A stretch of 48,658 nucleotides of DNA from Oscillospiraceae bacterium. GTDB lineage: Bacteria; Bacillota; Clostridia; Oscillospirales; CAG-272. The position numbers were made by a program, and so were the translations under genes. Each line of letters starts with the position of its first letter. Position 1 is the stretch's first letter. Location: positions 1 to 48,658 of the forward strand of contig SVSC01000004.1 of assembly GCA_015064525.1 (NCBI GenBank). Reading direction: 5' to 3'. Shown piece by piece: positions 10,905 to 30,420 of the stretch. Below the pieces are notes generated by a model, which saw only the letters and a program-made list of their open reading frames with translations, had not been told where the DNA came from and did not search any database.

Positions 10905-12335
10905 ATGGAACGCAAGAGCGGCGTGCTGATGCACGTTTCCTCCCTTTGGGGCGATTATTCCGAGGGATCCTTGGGCAGGGCAGCCAGGGAGTGGATTGAT
11001 TTTTTGGCGGAGGGGGGCTTCAAGGTGTGGCAGGTGCTACCCTTTTGCCTGCCAGACGAATGGAATTCCCCCTATAAATCCAACGGTGCCTTCAGCCTCA
11101 ATCCCAATTTTATTGATCTGCCAACGCTCCGCGAAATGGGGCTTCTCACCAACGGAGAGCTGGAGTCCGCGCGGCAGCTAACGCCCTACTCCTGCGAGTT
11201 CAAGCGCCTGCGAGAGGAGCGCTTTGCGCTTTTGCGGCGAGCGGCGGGCAGGGTGAAGGATTGGGCGCCCATTGAGCGCTTTCTGAACAATCATCCGCAG
11301 GTGGACGCTTTCTGCCGCTTTATGGCGCTCAAGGAGGCGAACGGAGGCGCGGAATGGGTGGATTGGACGGTGGACACTCCCAATGAGGAAACCTTGCGGG
11401 CATGGCAGTTCACGCAGTACGAATTTTTCTGTGAGTGGGCGGAGCTGAAGGCGTATGCCAACGCGAAAGGTGTGCAGATTATCGGAGATATCCCCATCTA
11501 CGTTGCCTACGACAGTTCCGACGTTTGGGCGAACCGAGAGCTGTTTTTGCTGGATGAAAGAGATCGCCCCACGGCGGTGGCGGGGGTTCCTCCCGATTAT
11601 TTCGCCAAGGACGGTCAGCTCTGGGGAAATCCGCTCTACAATTGGAGCAAAATGAAGGAGGACGGCTACGCTTGGTGGCGCGAGCGGATGGCGTTTATGC
11701 TGGAGCTGTTTGACGGCGTTCGCATCGACCATTTCCGTGGGCTGGAGTCCTATTTTTCGATCCCCGCAGGAGAAACGACCGCTCGCAACGGAAGGTGGGT
11801 GCAGGGACCGGGAATGGATCTGATCCGCGCCATTCAGCCCCTTTGCGAGGGCAAGCTGATCATCGCCGAGGATCTCGGTGTGATCACCCCCGAAGTGCGG
11901 GAGCTGGTGCGGGAAAGCGGATTCCCCGGAATGCGTGTTTTGCAATTCGGCTTTATCGACGAGGAGGATAACCCTCATTTGCCTCATAATTACGACAACC
12001 ATTGCGTGGCGTACACAGGAACGCACGATAATAACACGCTGTTGGGATACGTTTGGGAAATGAGCGACTATGATCGCCGCCGGTTGCTGGAGTATTGCGA
12101 CTACGACGGCGCCGATTGGGATAACTGCTATCCTGCGGTATTGCGAACCATGTTCCAGAGCCATGCGGGGCTTTTGATCATTCCCATTCAGGATTTGTTG
12201 CTCTACGGCTCGGATACGCGGATCAACACACCCGGCAACAGCGAGGGGAACTGGAGCTATCGGATTACCCGCGCCCAGCTTTACGAGATCGACCGCAAGC
12301 GCTTCCTCAACTGGAATCGCATTTATCGGAGATAA
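10905..12335 (+). CDS. malQ: 4-alpha-glucanotransferase
   Basis: RKSGVLMHVSSLWG...WQVLPF, IIGDIPIYVAYDSSDVWAN, GVRIDHFRGLESYFSIPAG, IIAEDLGVITPEVRELV, TGTHDNNTLLGY (GH77). Confidence 0.95.
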   Translation: MERKSGVLMHVSSLWGDYSEGSLGRAAREWIDFLAEGGFKVWQVLPFCLPDEWNSPYKSNGAFSLNPNFIDLPTLREMGLLTNGELESARQLTPYSCEFKRLREERFALLRRAAGRVKDWAPIERFLNNHPQVDAFCRFMALKEANGGAEWVDWTVDTPNEETLRAWQFTQYEFFCEWAELKAYANAKGVQIIGDIPIYVAYDSSDVWANRELFLLDERDRPTAVAGVPPDYFAKDGQLWGNPLYNWSKMKEDGYAWWRERMAFMLELFDGVRIDHFRGLESYFSIPAGETTARNGRWVQGPGMDLIRAIQPLCEGKLIIAEDLGVITPEVRELVRESGFPGMRVLQFGFIDEEDNPHLPHNYDNHCVAYTGTHDNNTLLGYVWEMSDYDRRRLLEYCDYDGADWDNCYPAVLRTMFQSHAGLLIIPIQDLLLYGSDTRINTPGNSEGNWSYRITRAQLYEIDRKRFLNWNRIYRR

Positions 12336-12340
12336 AAAAT

Positions 12341-12359
12341 CCCCGCCGAGAGGCGGGGG
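12341..12359. terminator. Terminator hairpin, copy 1 of a flanking direct repeat
   Basis: ccccgcc-gaga-ggcgggg; minus strand is followed by attttttatc. Confidence 0.7.
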
Positions 12360-12600
12360 TTGCAGGTTGTAGACCAAAGGTGCGCTAACCGTTGGATTGC
12401 ACAAATGCGTTAGCCGCTTTCTTTTGACACCGCAGGCGCAAAAGAAAGCTAGCAAAGAAAACGCCGTTTTGGGGAAATTTCGCCCGTTGCGACGGGCGAG
12501 GAGGGCTCCGCGCCCTCCACCGCGCCGCCTTTTGAAAAAGGCGGGCGAAAACTTTTCGTCAAAATGATAGTGCTAACCCCTTTGTCAGCAAGCTGAATCA
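12359..12600. repeat. Multi-hairpin intergenic element, family 1, copy 1
   Basis: Serial inverted repeats: ctttcttttg/caaaagaaag (12417-12448), cgcccgt-tgcg-acgggcg, ggagggc-tccgc-gccctcc, cctttt-gaaa-aagg. Core 12472-12540 resembles the reverse complement of 22735-22803. Flanked by ccgccgagaggcgggg on both sides. Confidence 0.75.
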
Positions 12601-12616
12601 CCGCCGAGAGGCGGGG
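12601..12616. repeat. Second copy of the 16-bp hairpin sequence flanking the element
   Basis: ccgccgagaggcgggg, identical to 12343-12358. Confidence 0.85.
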
Positions 12617-12623
12617 ATTGGAT

Positions 12624-12962
12624 TCATGCCATTTGATCGGGCAGCTTTTTGCCGCCGAGAATATGGAAATGCAAATGCTTCACGGTCTGACAGCCGTCCT
12701 CACCGCAGTTGTTGATGATGCGGTAGCCGTTTGTCAAGCCCTCGGCGGCGGCAATCTTGGGGATCGCTTCAAAAATACGCGCCACGTTGTGGCTGTTTTC
12801 GGCGTTGATGCCGTCGGCGCAGCAGATATGCTCCTTGGGAACCACCAGAACGTGAACGGGCGCCATGGGGGCAATGTCGCGGAAGGCGTACACCCATTCG
12901 TCCTCGTAAACCTTGGCGGAGGGAATTTCCCCCGCGATAATTTTGCAAAACAAACAATCCAT
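12624..12962 (-). CDS. HIT-family (HinT-like) protein
   Basis: MDCLFCKIIAGEIPSAKVYEDEWVYAFRDIAPMAPVHVLVVPKEH...GQTVKHLHFHILGG-type motif (TVKHLHFHILGG). Confidence 0.95.
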   Translation of the reverse strand: MDCLFCKIIAGEIPSAKVYEDEWVYAFRDIAPMAPVHVLVVPKEHICCADGINAENSHNVARIFEAIPKIAAAEGLTNGYRIINNCGEDGCQTVKHLHFHILGGKKLPDQMA

Positions 12963-14200: not shown

Positions 14201-14675
14201 GCAGACCACTCTGTGCTATCTGGAGCGGGGCGAGGAGTACCTTCTTTTGCACCGCGTGAAGAAGAAAAACGACGAAAATCATGACAAATGGATCGGCGTT
14301 GGCGGTAAATTTGAGGAGGGGGAGAGCCCCGAGGACTGCGTTTTGCGAGAGGTGCGAGAGGAGACGGGGCTAACTCTCACCTCCTATCGCTATCGAGGAA
14401 TCGTCACCTTTGTGTCGGATATCTACCCCTGCGAATATATGCACCTGTTCACCGCCGACGGCTGGACGGGAGAGGAGCAGATCTGCGACGAGGGCGAGCT
14501 TGCCTGGATCTCTAAGCGAGCTTTCGCGAGCCTACCCATGTGGGAGGGCGATTACATTTTCCTTGATCTTTTAGAGCAAAACGCGCCCTTCTTTTCCTTG
14601 AAGCTGGTGTACCGAGGAGAAACGCTGGTTGATGCGGTTCTGAACGGAAAGCGAGTGCGGGGAGGGGAGAAATGA
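14193..14675 (+). CDS. NUDIX hydrolase (MutT-like)
   Basis: GVGGKFEEGESPEDCVLREVREETGL is a NUDIX box. RBS aaaggagg; overlaps the preceding gene by 8 nt. Confidence 0.93.
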   Translation: MFKQTTLCYLERGEEYLLLHRVKKKNDENHDKWIGVGGKFEEGESPEDCVLREVREETGLTLTSYRYRGIVTFVSDIYPCEYMHLFTADGWTGEEQICDEGELAWISKRAFASLPMWEGDYIFLDLLEQNAPFFSLKLVYRGETLVDAVLNGKRVRGGEK

Positions 14676-14678
14676 TTT

Positions 14679-14706
14679 GTGGAACCTTCTTGGAAGAAGG
14701 TTCCAC
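14679..14706. terminator. Terminator-like hairpin belonging to repeat family 2
   Basis: gtggaaccttct-tgga-agaaggttccac. Confidence 0.75.
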
Positions 14707-14945
14707 ACCTCCAAGAACTTTCCCGTAGGTGTTTTTTGAGAGTGTTGCGTTACATTGCGGCGCTCTTTTTCGTTTTGTGAATTTGTTTGTACGGTACGTT
14801 GGTCGAGCAGCAGCTCCCGCAAGCGCGCCGGTACCGCCACCCCGCGCGCTCCACGAAGTTAGCATATTTGAACTGTTTGGAAACAGACGGTATCTCATTT
14901 TCGGAGACGGTATGATCAAATTTTGATCAAACAAAGATCAAAAAA
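14679..14945 (-). repeat. Dispersed intergenic repeat family 2, copy A (inverted)
   Basis: Its reverse complement contains tgtttccaaacagttcaa...gctaac..cgtggagcg...ggggtggcgg...gcttgcgggagct and cacctacgggaaagttcttggaggtgtggaaccttcttccaagaaggttccacaa, matching the 29.9-30.4 kb copies. Confidence 0.8.
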
Positions 14946-14948
14946 ACA

Positions 14949-14992
14949 AAAGCTGCTTTTACCATCACCTTTATGACGGCAAAAGCAGCTTT
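14949..14992. terminator. Intrinsic terminator
   Basis: aaagctgctttt / aaaagcagcttt, perfect 12 bp. Confidence 0.8.
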
Positions 14993-18978: not shown

Positions 18979-19028
18979 TAGGAGTGAGAAAAATTCTCTT
19001 CAAAAATATTCAGGAGGTTTATCCACTC

Positions 19029-22000
19029 ATGGCAATTGAAAGAAGAAAAATTTCCATGGATGGTAACACTGCCGCGGCGCACGTTTCCTATGCGTTCACC
19101 GAGGTTGCTGCCATCTACCCCATCACTCCTTCCTCCCCTATGGCGGAAGTGACCGACACCTGGGCTGCTACCGATAAGAACATTTTCGGTGAGCCCGCAA
19201 GAAACATCTTTGGCGACACCGTTAAGGTGATGGAGATGCAGTCTGAGGCAGGTGCCGCAGGCGCCGTTCACGGCTCTCTGGCGGCAGGTGCGCTGACCAC
19301 CACCTACACCGCATCTCAGGGTCTGCTTCTCATGATCCCCAATATGTACAAGATCGCGGGTGAGCTGCTTCCTTGCGTGATCCACGTATCCGCTCGTTGC
19401 GTAGCTTCTCATGCCCTGAACATTTTCGGTGACCACTCCGACGTTTACGCTTGCCGTCAGACCGGCTTCGCTATGATGGCTGAGTCTAACCAGCAGGAGA
19501 TCATGGACCTGGGCGCCGTTGCGCACCTGGCAACCATTAAGAGCCGCGTTCCCTTCCTGAACTTCTTCGATGGCTTCCGTACCTCCCACGAGGTTCAGAA
19601 GATTGAAACCTGGGACTACAAGGATCTGGCTGAGATGGTGGATATGGACGCTGTGAAGGGCTTCCGTTCCCGCGCTCTGAACCCCGAGCATCCCGTTCTT
19701 CGCGGCTCTGCTGAAAACGGCGACATCTTCTTCCAGCACAGAGAGTCCTGCAACCCCTACTACGATGCGCTTCCCGCAATCGTTGAGGAGTACATGGAAA
19801 AGGTAAATGCCAAGATCGGCACCAACTACCAGCTGTTTAACTACTACGGCGCTCCCGATGCTGAGAGAGTGATCGTTGCAATGGGCTCTGTTTGCGACGT
19901 TGCAGAAGAGGTAATCGACTATATGCTGGCAGCAGGCGAGAAGGTTGGCCTTGTGAAGGTTCGTCTGTACAGACCCTTCGTTGCTGAGAAGCTGGCTGCG
20001 GCTCTTCCCGCAACCGTCAAGAAGATCGCGGTTCTCGACAGAACCAAGGAGCCCGGCGCGCTGGGCGATCCTCTGTATCTGGACGTTGTGGCTGCTCTGG
20101 CTACCACCGGTGTGAACGCCAAGGTTGTTGGCGGTCGCTACGGTCTGGGCTCCAAGGACACCACTCCCGCATCCATTTTTGCCGTGTTCGCAAACCTTGC
20201 TAAGGACGAGCCCAAGAACGGCTTCACCATTGGTATCGTTGACGACGTGACCGGTCACTCCCTGGAAGAGACCGAGGCTCCCGACACCGCATCCGCAGGC
20301 ACCGTTTCCTGCAAGTTCTGGGGTCTGGGCGGCGACGGAACCGTTGGCGCGAACAAGAACTCCATCAAGATCATTGGTGACTACACCGATAAGTTTATTC
20401 AGGCTTACTATCAGTACGACTCCAAGAAGACCAACGGCGTTACCATTTCTCACCTGAGATTCGGTGACAAGGCCATTAAGTCTCCCTACTATATCACCAA
20501 GGCAGATTTCGTTGCCTGCCACGTTCCCGCTTATATCCTCAAGGGCTATAAGGTGGTTCAGGACGTGAAGCCCGGCGGTTCCTTCCTTCTGAACTGCCAG
20601 TGGACTCCCGAGGAGCTGGAGGAGCATCTTCCCAACTCCGTGAAGAGCTACATCGCAAAGAACAACATCAAGTTCTTCATTATCAACGCAATCGACAAGG
20701 CTCGTGAGATCGGTATGGGCAAGAGAACCAACACCATTCTCCAGTCCGCCTTCTTCAAGCTGGCGAACATCATGCCTATCGAAGAGGCTGTTGACCACAT
20801 GAAGTACATGGCTAAGAAGTCCTACCTGAAGAAGGGCGAGGCTGTGGTTGAAATGAACTACAAGGCAATCGACGCAGGCGTGGACGCCATTGTGGAGATC
20901 AACGTTCCCGCTGCTTGGGCAACTCTCGCCGATGAGGCTGCAGAGGCTCCCGCAACCGGCGCTCGCGCAGATCTGGTTGACTTCGTGAACAACATCGTTC
21001 GTCCCGTGAACGCAATGAAGGGCGATTCTCTCCCTGTTTCCGCGTTCGTAGGCCGTGCCGACGGTACCTTCCCCCAGGGCTCTGCCGCCTACGAGAAGAG
21101 AGGCGTGGCTGTGGACGTTCCCGTTTGGTATGCTGAGAACTGCATTCAGTGTAACAGCTGCGCGTTCGTATGTCCTCACGCCGCAATCCGTCCCTTCGCT
21201 ATGACCGAGGAGGAGGCAGCAAACGCTCCCGCTTCCACCAAGTTCACCGCGAAGCCCGTGATCAAGACCAACTACAAGTTCACCATGGCGATCAGTCCTC
21301 TGGACTGCATGGGCTGCACGCTCTGCGTGAAGGCTTGCCCTGTGACCGCAAAGAATCCCGAGAAGCCCGCGATCGCTATGACCTCTCAGGCAAGCCAGCT
21401 GGATCAGCAGGCTGCATTCGACTATGCTGTTGCCAACGTTTCCGAGAAGAAGGAGCTGATCAACGCAACCGTAAAGGGAAGCCAGTTCAAGCAGCCCCTG
21501 CTTGAGTTCTCCGGCTCCTGCGCAGGCTGTGCGGAAACCTCCTACGCTCGTCTCGTAACACAGCTGTTCGGTGAGAGAATGTATATCTCCAACGCAACTG
21601 GATGCTCCTCCATTTGGGGTGGCTCCGCGCCCGCAACTCCCTACACCGTGAACCGCGAGAGCGGCTGCGGACCCGCATGGGGCAACTCCCTGTTCGAGGA
21701 TAACGCTGAGCATGGAATGGGTATCGCTCTGGGTCAGAAGACCATCCGTGAGCGTCTCATGGGCAAGGTGAAGGAAATGGCAGCCTCCGAGAAGGCAAGC
21801 GACGAGTTCAAGGCAGCTGCAGAGGCATACTTTGCAACCGCTGAGGACGGCGAGAAGAACGCAGACGCCACCAAGGCTCTGATTGTTGAGCTGGAGAAGG
21901 CTGCGGCTGCAGGCTGTCCCGTGGCTCCCGCTATCCTGGACGAGAAGGAATACCTCGCTAAGAAGTCGGTTTGGATCTTCGGTGGCGACGGATGGGCATA

Positions 22001-22607
22001 CGACATCGGCTTCGGCGGTCTGGACCACGTTCTGGCTTCCGGTGAGGACGTTAACGTATTCGTATTCGATACCGAGGTGTACTCCAACACCGGTGGACAG
22101 GCTTCCAAGGCATCCAGCATTGGTCAGGTTGCTCAGTTCGCGGCAGCAGGTAAGGCAATCGGCAAGAAGAATCTGGCTGAGATCGCAATGTCCTACGGCT
22201 ACGTTTACGTTGCACAGGTTGCAATGGGCGCCGATATGAACCAGCTCCTGAAGGCTCTGAAGGAGGCTGAGGCATACCACGGTCCTTCCCTGATCATCGG
22301 TTACGCTCCTTGTGAGATGCACGGCTTGAAGGGCGGAATGCAGAACTGCCAGTTCGAAATGAAGAAGGCAGTTGAGGCAGGCTACTGGCAGATGTTCCGC
22401 TACAACCCCACGCTGGAGTCCAACAAGCTGACCATTGATTCCAAGGCTCCCTCCGCAGATTACGTTGAGTTCATTAAGACCGAAACTCGTTACGCTCGCT
22501 TGGCACAGTCCTTCCCCGAAAGAGCTGCAGAGCTCTTTGCAAAGGCAGACGCCAACGCAAAGGCGAAGTACGAGAGACTGGTTAAGATGGGTAAGCTCTA
22601 CGAATAA
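19029..22607 (+). CDS. nifJ: Pyruvate:ferredoxin (flavodoxin) oxidoreductase
   Basis: TAAAHVSYAFTEVAAIYPITPSSPMAE, two ferredoxin clusters (CIQCNSCAFVCPHAAIRPF; CMGCTLCVKACPVTAKNPE), GCAETSYARL, TPP site GDGWAYDIGFGGLDHV. Start at ATG 19029 (MAIERRK). Confidence 0.96.
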   Translation: MAIERRKISMDGNTAAAHVSYAFTEVAAIYPITPSSPMAEVTDTWAATDKNIFGEPARNIFGDTVKVMEMQSEAGAAGAVHGSLAAGALTTTYTASQGLLLMIPNMYKIAGELLPCVIHVSARCVASHALNIFGDHSDVYACRQTGFAMMAESNQQEIMDLGAVAHLATIKSRVPFLNFFDGFRTSHEVQKIETWDYKDLAEMVDMDAVKGFRSRALNPEHPVLRGSAENGDIFFQHRESCNPYYDALPAIVEEYMEKVNAKIGTNYQLFNYYGAPDAERVIVAMGSVCDVAEEVIDYMLAAGEKVGLVKVRLYRPFVAEKLAAALPATVKKIAVLDRTKEPGALGDPLYLDVVAALATTGVNAKVVGGRYGLGSKDTTPASIFAVFANLAKDEPKNGFTIGIVDDVTGHSLEETEAPDTASAGTVSCKFWGLGGDGTVGANKNSIKIIGDYTDKFIQAYYQYDSKKTNGVTISHLRFGDKAIKSPYYITKADFVACHVPAYILKGYKVVQDVKPGGSFLLNCQWTPEELEEHLPNSVKSYIAKNNIKFFIINAIDKAREIGMGKRTNTILQSAFFKLANIMPIEEAVDHMKYMAKKSYLKKGEAVVEMNYKAIDAGVDAIVEINVPAAWATLADEAAEAPATGARADLVDFVNNIVRPVNAMKGDSLPVSAFVGRADGTFPQGSAAYEKRGVAVDVPVWYAENCIQCNSCAFVCPHAAIRPFAMTEEEAANAPASTKFTAKPVIKTNYKFTMAISPLDCMGCTLCVKACPVTAKNPEKPAIAMTSQASQLDQQAAFDYAVANVSEKKELINATVKGSQFKQPLLEFSGSCAGCAETSYARLVTQLFGERMYISNATGCSSIWGGSAPATPYTVNRESGCGPAWGNSLFEDNAEHGMGIALGQKTIRERLMGKVKEMAASEKASDEFKAAAEAYFATAEDGEKNADATKALIVELEKAAAAGCPVAPAILDEKEYLAKKSVWIFGGDGWAYDIGFGGLDHVLASGEDVNVFVFDTEVYSNTGGQASKASSIGQVAQFAAAGKAIGKKNLAEIAMSYGYVYVAQVAMGADMNQLLKALKEAEAYHGPSLIIGYAPCEMHGLKGGMQNCQFEMKKAVEAGYWQMFRYNPTLESNKLTIDSKAPSADYVEFIKTETRYARLAQSFPERAAELFAKADANAKAKYERLVKMGKLYE

Positions 22608-22629: not shown

Positions 22630-22662
22630 AGCCCCCCAAGAGCATTTCGCTCTCGGGGGGCT
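22630..22662. terminator. Intrinsic terminator
   Basis: agccccccaagagc-atttc-gctctcggggggct. Confidence 0.88.
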
Positions 22663-22689
22663 CATACTGTAGACAAAACAAGCGAGTTT

Positions 22690-22803
22690 CGTTGGTTTGA
22701 TGAAAGTTTTGATCAACGTGCTTGCACGTTTCACTTTCTTCAAAAGTTTGCGGGGTGAAGGGGCGGAGCCCTTCTCGCCCTCCGCAGAGGGCGAAATTTC
22801 CCT
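22690..22803. repeat. Multi-hairpin intergenic element, family 1, copy 2 (opposite orientation)
   Basis: aacgtgcttgcacgtt, gaaggggcggagcccttc and cgccctccgcagagggcg hairpins; reverse complement aligns to 12472-12565 with compensatory changes. Confidence 0.75.
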
Positions 22804-22914
22804 AATCCACGTCTCTTTTTTTAGGGGAGAAGCCCGTATTCGCCCTTGGGAACCAAAGAATATATGGGATATGCTGAATACGGTAAAAGGAATCTTTTTT
22901 TAAGGGAGAGCTAT

Positions 22915-29899: not shown

Positions 29900-30197
29900 C
29901 CCGCTTTCCAAACTCGACTCTTGTTTGATTGTAATTCGGTCATGCTATCCCCGAGAATGAAATTTTATCTGTTTCCAAAACAGTTCAACCTCACTAACAT
30001 CATGGAGCGGATGGGGTGGCGGGACCCAGCCGCTTGCGGGAGCTATTGTTTGGTGAGCGTATCGCAGATGGGCGGTATAAAACTACAGACCGAGCCGCCA
30101 TGTATCACAAACTCCAAACCAACCCCTACGGGAAAGTTCTTGGAGGTGTGGAACCTTCTTTCAAGAAGGTTCCACAATCCACCCTTCCCTTCCAAAA
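29900..30197 (+). repeat. Dispersed intergenic repeat family 2, copy B
   Basis: tgtttccaaaacagttcaa...ctaacatcatggagcggatggggtggcgggacccagccgcttgcgggagct...ctacgggaaagttcttggaggtgtggaaccttctttcaagaaggttccac. Confidence 0.85.
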
Positions 30198-30420
30198 CTA
30201 ACATCGTGGAGCGGATGGGGTGGCGGGACCCAGCCGCTTGCGGGAGCTATTGTTTGGTGAGCGTACCGCAGATGAGCGACATGAAACTACCGACCGAGCC
30301 GCTATGTATCGCTACTTCCAAACGAACGACCAACCCGCTATGTATCACCAACTCCAAACCAACCCCCACGGGAAAGTTCTTGGAGGTGTGGAACCTTCTT
30401 TCAAGAAGGTTCCACAAATC
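30198..30420 (+). repeat. Dispersed intergenic repeat family 2, copy C (tandem to copy B, 204-nt offset)
   Basis: ctaacatcgtggagcggatggggtggcgggacccagccgcttgcgggagctattgtttggtgagcgta repeats copy B almost exactly; ends with the same hairpin (30388-30415). Contains an internal 36-39-nt duplication (ccgctatgtatc...tccaaac.aac). Confidence 0.88.

Follow-up and report, generated by a model that had tools for sequence, protein, structure and literature searches.

A dispersed multi-hairpin repeat of an uncultured Clostridia-type gut bacterium is a non-autonomous transposon, probably moved by an IS1182-family transposase that duplicates whole terminator hairpins

What is the multi-hairpin sequence that lies between two convergent genes of this contig, and why does it recur in reverse complement further along? 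The window, i.e. the whole 48,658-nucleotide stretch that was analysed, is contig C35 of genome G000 (2.18 Mb in 149 contigs). The initial annotation had described a dispersed element at 12472-12565, whose paired substitutions were taken to reflect selection on a folded RNA or DNA form. The two copies are present where it placed them (84% complementary over 49 nt), and the element is indeed dispersed, since a BLAST search with positions 12400-12590 gave 43 matches at E <= 1 in its own genome, many of them at contig ends. However, 12472-12565 is only the core of a unit that spans 12363-12595 (233 bp). We conclude that the repeat is a non-autonomous transposon (IS-type MITE). The features that define it in the window are the following:

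10905-12335, plus strand: 4-alpha-glucanotransferase (GH77), flanking gene (Pfam PF02446, 485 bits)
12363-12595, plus strand: complete MITE copy 1, 233 bp, with ends CAGGTTGTAGACCAA ... TTTGTCAGCAAGCTG
12363-12377, plus strand: left terminal inverted repeat (TIR), CAGNNTGNNGACNAA
12581-12595, plus strand: right TIR
12624-12962, minus strand: HIT-domain protein, flanking convergent gene (Pfam PF01230, 87.5 bits)
22630-22662, unstranded: stem-loop AGCCCCCCAAGAGCATTTCGCTCTCGGGGGGCT adjoining the intact end of copy 2, downstream of the pyruvate:ferredoxin oxidoreductase gene (18984-22607)
22663-22805 (inner limit about 22805), minus strand: copy 2, decayed, with CATACTGTAGACAAAA (22663-22678) as its sole intact terminus

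Each complete copy opens with CAGNNTGNNGACNAA and closes with the reverse complement of this sequence, so that both termini carry the TIR. The two are mostly 231-245 bp apart, and the sequence between them holds no transposase gene; the element is thus short, non-coding and multicopy. The congeners G001, G004 and G012 gave 48, 38 and 38 matches, and several others few or none. No match to the exact TIR pattern was found in 58 other genera of the family, and this end variant therefore looks restricted to the genus. TIR pairs spaced by 1-3 kb were not seen in the own genome, hence no assembled autonomous copy there. Between 22607 and 22663, the stem-loop 3' of the pyruvate:ferredoxin oxidoreductase gene runs straight into MITE sequence and has no T-run, because the other half of this insertion has decayed.

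We then considered the sequences that border the element. At copy 1, these are two stem-loops:

12338-12361, unstranded: left copy of the duplicated terminator stem-loop, AATCCCCGCCGAGAGGCGGGGGTT, with a minus-strand T-run (TTTTATCTC) on its outer side
12596-12619, unstranded: right copy, AATCACCGCCGAGAGGCGGGGATT, 92% identical to the left one

The terminator of the HIT gene, read on the minus strand, thus retains its T-run on the far stem-loop. It had been noted earlier that each copy follows a terminator. The elements do sit at terminators, but the terminator is the target site itself, and it is duplicated at copy 1. Among the 22 complete copies of the genus that are flanked by 50 nt or more, a stem-loop touches both ends in 19, and in 16 it is the same stem-loop (at least 85% identity, direct or inverted), as expected of the target-site duplication of a MITE; any stem-loop on both sides was found in 2 of 600 random placements. 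The duplicated segment is the terminator stem-loop, 19-37 nt long, its length following that of the stem-loop and its sequence differing from locus to locus. Some pairs are exact direct repeats, such as AACGCCCCAACGGAGCAATCCGTTGAGGCGTT (L059), AGCGCGGCTGTGCATTTGCACTGCCGCGCT (L003) and AATCCGCCGATTTTTTCGGCGGATT (L017). Most copies leave 0-1 nt between stem and element, and the outer sides of the stem-loops are T-rich.

Several copies count against a duplication model. In three of the 22, at least one side has no stem-loop, and in L024 the left and right stem-loops differ. Moreover, the loop is inverted between the two stem-loops of the MITE pairs L002, L077, L078 and the first L093 copy, as well as of the IS1182 element L199, which simple gap repair does not predict. 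Flipped loops of this kind, i.e. flanking stem-loops that are inverted copies of each other, were seen at L034, L044, L002, L093 (L035) and L199, in some MITE insertions and one IS1182 insertion; template switching, in the course of repair or later, may account for them.

Three other arrangements were observed at these borders. At L093 (contig C22 of G005), stem-loops and MITEs form a tandem array (stem-loop/MITE/stem-loop/MITE/stem-loop), either by renewed insertion into a hairpin that had been duplicated before or by tandem duplication. The left stem-loop of L024, GGGGCTGTCTCAAATGC..GCATTTGAGACAGCCCC, resembles the termini of an IS1272-like IS1182 subgroup (compare L189) and the right one does not, as if one element had targeted the palindromic remnant of another. 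Finally, contigs C34 and C104 of G000 (L165, L170) end inside MITE copies with the same duplicated stem-loop, GAAACGCCCCCTCGGAGC.., so that matching target duplications could serve to pair contigs of this fragmented assembly.

Unoccupied sites in related species speak for a duplication of the target. The murA/uvrA intergenic site is occupied in G000 (L002), and in G006 this gene pair comes with a single hairpin (gene names were read from the flanks and not from a family search). One hairpin is likewise found at the L014 locus in each of G009, G007 and G003. These sites belong to related species with different terminator sequences and thus give the position and number of hairpins, not the exact sequence before insertion; at the HIT locus, the orthologous sites are too rearranged for a clean comparison. 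The ends of the element, the stem-loop-sized duplication, its locus specificity and the single-hairpin empty sites can all be read from the sequences themselves.

The interior of the element raises a second question, namely why its hairpins co-vary. Four stems were delineated in copy 1:

12417-12448, plus strand: stem A, CTTTCTTTTG/CAAAAGAAAG, co-varying among copies (TTTTCTCTTG/CAAGAGAAAA, TTTTTCTTTG/CAAAGAAAAA)
12481-12498, plus strand: stem B, CGCCCGT-TGCG-ACGGGCG, with five fully complementary variants
12500-12518, plus strand: stem C, GGAGGGC-TCCGC-GCCCTCC, wholly replaced by CCAACGC/GCGTTGG in some copies
12523-12547, plus strand: stem D around CTTTTGAAAAAG, with variable outer pairs 97% complementary

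Both copies of the window fold better than their shuffled versions (z-scores of -5.3 for copy 1 and -3.8 for copy 2). The paired changes reported between them are real. In stem B, CGCCCGT/ACGGGCG becomes CGCCCTC/GAGGGCG, two double changes with the TGCG loop kept, and in stem C, GGAGGGC/GCCCTCC becomes GAAGGG/CCCTTC; the third hairpin that had been proposed is paired in copy 1, whereas in copy 2 it has decayed. Stem arms were compared copy by copy, because loop lengths vary between copies and shift the alignment columns. Across 37 distinct cores of the genus, stem B occurs as CGCCCTC, CGCTCTC, CGCCCGT, CGCGCTC and CGCCGTC, all of them with an exactly complementary second arm; the loop is TGCG in all cores but one (TGCA). 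Stem B is perfectly paired in 92% of these cores against a mean of 23% (maximum 49%) when 3' arms are shuffled, a procedure that ignores the shared ancestry of the copies; for the variable part of stem D, the figures are 97%, 32% and 54%. For stem C, 22 variants were found, almost all of them complementary. If each distinct arm pair is counted once, few remain for stems B and D, and the highest shuffled value equals or exceeds the observed one, so that the evidence for covariation lies in the number of different perfect stems and not in the percentage alone.

The initial annotation was therefore right that substitutions are paired, and they are so over four stems, but a reading as a functional RNA is not supported, and template switching within quasi-palindromes can also yield paired changes without any selection. 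This latter explanation, in which the internal changes result from mutation bias through quasi-palindrome correction, concerns the selection on hairpins and leaves the identity of the MITE untouched. The arms are near-perfect palindromes in a non-coding repeat, and the loop inversions of the flanking stem-loops are the kind of event that template switching produces. On the other hand, almost every complete copy, in several species, has these four stems in the same positions, and stem C has been exchanged for unrelated and yet complementary sequences. Mutation bias by itself seems possible, though rather doubtful. We slightly favour selection on folded DNA or RNA, and give a little better than an even chance to the view that the hairpins are kept for the sake of their folded form, which would serve the element or its transcript. 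This is the weakest step of our interpretation. With so many stem variants, the family lends itself well to testing whether selection or template switching causes the paired changes of mobile palindromes.

One could also suppose that the sequence is a conserved structured RNA, a 3' UTR module or a small RNA under host selection, whose mobility is incidental. The strong covariation in four stems, the essentially constant TGCG loop and CTTTTGAAAAAG core, and the location of the elements at gene ends would fit such an RNA. Nevertheless, copy number is erratic over the genus, from 48 to none, orthologous sites are often empty, and TIRs and a target duplication are present. In addition, Rfam gave no match at gathering thresholds, and with relaxed thresholds the top scores below gathering were 13-17 bits. 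We thus regard a host RNA as unlikely.

If the repeat is a transposon, which enzyme could move it? Searches of the genus with PF01609 and PF13751 returned almost nothing. Through a weak fragment in G005 we reached an IS1182 subgroup that ends in GGGGCTGTC, a candidate that we rejected as these ends do not fit the MITE. In the same order, the element L117 (G013) has CAGACTGTC ends, both adjoining a stem-loop, around a decayed IS1182 transposase, and an order-wide search yielded 17 loci. The IS1182 transposons of this order have CAG...CTG ends. Stem-loop targeting is common among them: in an automatic test, 10 of the 11 elements whose ends could be set have a stem-loop adjoining both ends, and in seven the stem-loop is duplicated, six times as an exact direct repeat and once inverted (L199). 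In the other four, the hairpins are different or undetected on the two sides; the left and right stem-loops of L203, L207 and L117 differ, which counts against the model.

The transposases of L203 and L207 score 469 and 457 bits against the IS1182 model NF033551 (cut-off 270). The ends of L203, an element of the same bacterial family, are CAGACTGAAGACAAAG and compare with CAGACTGTAGACAAAA in the MITE, and the right end of L207, CAGACCACTGACAAACCC, matches the MITE end variant CAGACCACTGACAAACCG. A profile built from L203 and L207 detected IS1182-like fragments in G012, G095 and G000. The G012 fragment (L211) is a C-terminal one at a contig end; its end, TTTTCGTCTACAGTCTG, has 16 terminal bases in common with the G012 MITEs and adjoins the stem-loop AACCAGACCGCTCC...GGAGCGGTCTGGTT. 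In the own genome, an IS1182 N-terminus lies at a contig end (L212), and its end, of the CAGTCTGTCGAAAAAG type, adjoins a stem-loop too. The behaviour of IS1182 elements in the order and the termini common to the MITE and a same-genus IS1182 fragment are, again, features of the sequences as they stand. The genus yielded no intact IS1182 gene bounded by exactly the MITE ends; its matches are fragments, several of them at contig ends of incomplete MAGs. The MITE is probably moved by an IS1182-family transposase, a point that we strongly infer rather than demonstrate, because no intact copy with MITE ends was found in the same genus. Altogether, the data are very probably explained by a family of 233-245-bp MITEs, probably mobilised in trans by IS1182, with the terminator hairpin as target duplication. 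The novelty of the element, which had been proposed unless it proved to be IS-derived, does not survive the TIRs, the target-site duplication and the likely IS1182 mobiliser.

Long or variable target duplications are known in the IS1634 and IS1202 groups, and mobilisation by another family (IS1634, ISNCY/IS1202-like, IS200/IS605 or RAYT-like) could accordingly be envisaged. This is very improbable, as the termini and the stem-loop duplication of IS1182 match directly and single-strand transposases are not known to produce a target duplication. That the two stem-loops would be the element's own terminator ends or pre-existing tandem terminators, as the three copies with a stem-loop on one side only or on neither and some IS1182 elements with different hairpins left and right might suggest, can practically be dismissed, since the stem-loop differs at every locus, is matched within each locus and is single at orthologous sites in relatives.

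How would IS1182-mediated insertion proceed? An IS1182-family DDE transposase, acting in trans, would recognise the CAG...GACNAA ends, and the target would be chosen by its structure, the palindrome of an intrinsic terminator, presumably extruded as a cruciform in which the feet of the palindrome are adjacent. This would place the element in a 3' UTR or between convergent genes, and as the outer stem-loop copies keep their T-runs, termination should persist for the flanking genes. We infer the catalytic steps, the cruciform extrusion and the retained termination. Quite tentatively, we propose a structure-templated pathway in which an IS1182-type enzyme cuts at the 5' feet of both cruciform arms. 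The hairpin would thereby be duplicated, with its loop sometimes flipped and the outer terminators left in place, and the internal hairpins would be selected since the pathway, or the 3' UTR arising from it, depends on their folding. Such insertion would explain how a genome can hold dozens of copies without obvious loss of termination, as well as why the G000 assembly breaks at the elements and how contig ends could be paired through matching duplicated hairpins. The targeting rule of an IS1182 transposase would also become testable.

Two other repeats were noticed in the window. A second dispersed family, at 14661-14950 and 29921-30420 in opposite orientation, contains the hairpin TGTGGAACCTTCTT..AAGAAGGTTCCACA; it has tandem copies near 30 kb, with a 184-aa ORF without Pfam match, and is possibly another MITE family. 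Exactly at the contig end, 48589-48658 contains a 31-nt inverted repeat (97% complementary) that probably arose as an artefact, by fold-back during assembly.

MITEs, IS1182 elements and hairpin targeting are each already known, and the comparison with other systems shows what this family combines. Group IIC introns also insert at terminator hairpins, but they are retroelements without TIRs or target duplication, and the MITE has no Rfam match. REP/REPIN sequences with their RAYT are likewise dispersed extragenic palindromes at gene ends; here, however, the palindromes on either side are part of the target and vary from locus to locus, and the element has true TIRs and a target duplication. BOX, RUP, ERIC, bcr1, Correia and QMITE elements are short, dispersed and intergenic, with stable folds and, for many, TIRs, and compensatory changes have been described for some of them. 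Where known, the target duplications of these elements are short, whereas the one described here is a stem-loop of variable length. For IS1182, ISfinder/TnPedia record direct repeats of 0-60 bp, so that part of the hairpin duplication may already be recorded. The IS1182 elements of the order (L194-L199, L203, L206, L207, L211) resemble the MITE by their CAG...CTG ends adjoining stem-loops, with the whole stem-loop duplicated in seven of 11, but carry a transposase gene (about 1.5 kb), in place of which the MITE has four hairpins in a conserved array. Bacterial MITEs with stable transcript structure have been reviewed (PMC10969869), and a MITE with duplication of a whole terminator was not found in the open-access PMC literature.

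The closest parallel is with IS1272 and TnSha1, IS1182-family elements of Staphylococcus that recognise a hairpin by structure and not by sequence, often a transcription terminator, and that delete or replace it, leaving no duplication (PMC4923244, PMC5678879). Furi et al. (2016) described this targeting with partial deletion of the hairpin (PMC4923244). The MITE similarly inserts at hairpin-structured targets and probably uses an IS1182-type transposase, but the complete hairpin is kept and duplicated instead of replaced. Wan et al. (2017) drew hairpin duplication as a hypothetical pathway b, beside the replacement pathway observed for IS1272 (PMC5678879). The MITE and the order's IS1182 elements would illustrate this pathway in nature, giving to whole-hairpin target duplication, earlier only a branch of a model in the open-access literature, examples in both a MITE and full IS1182 elements.
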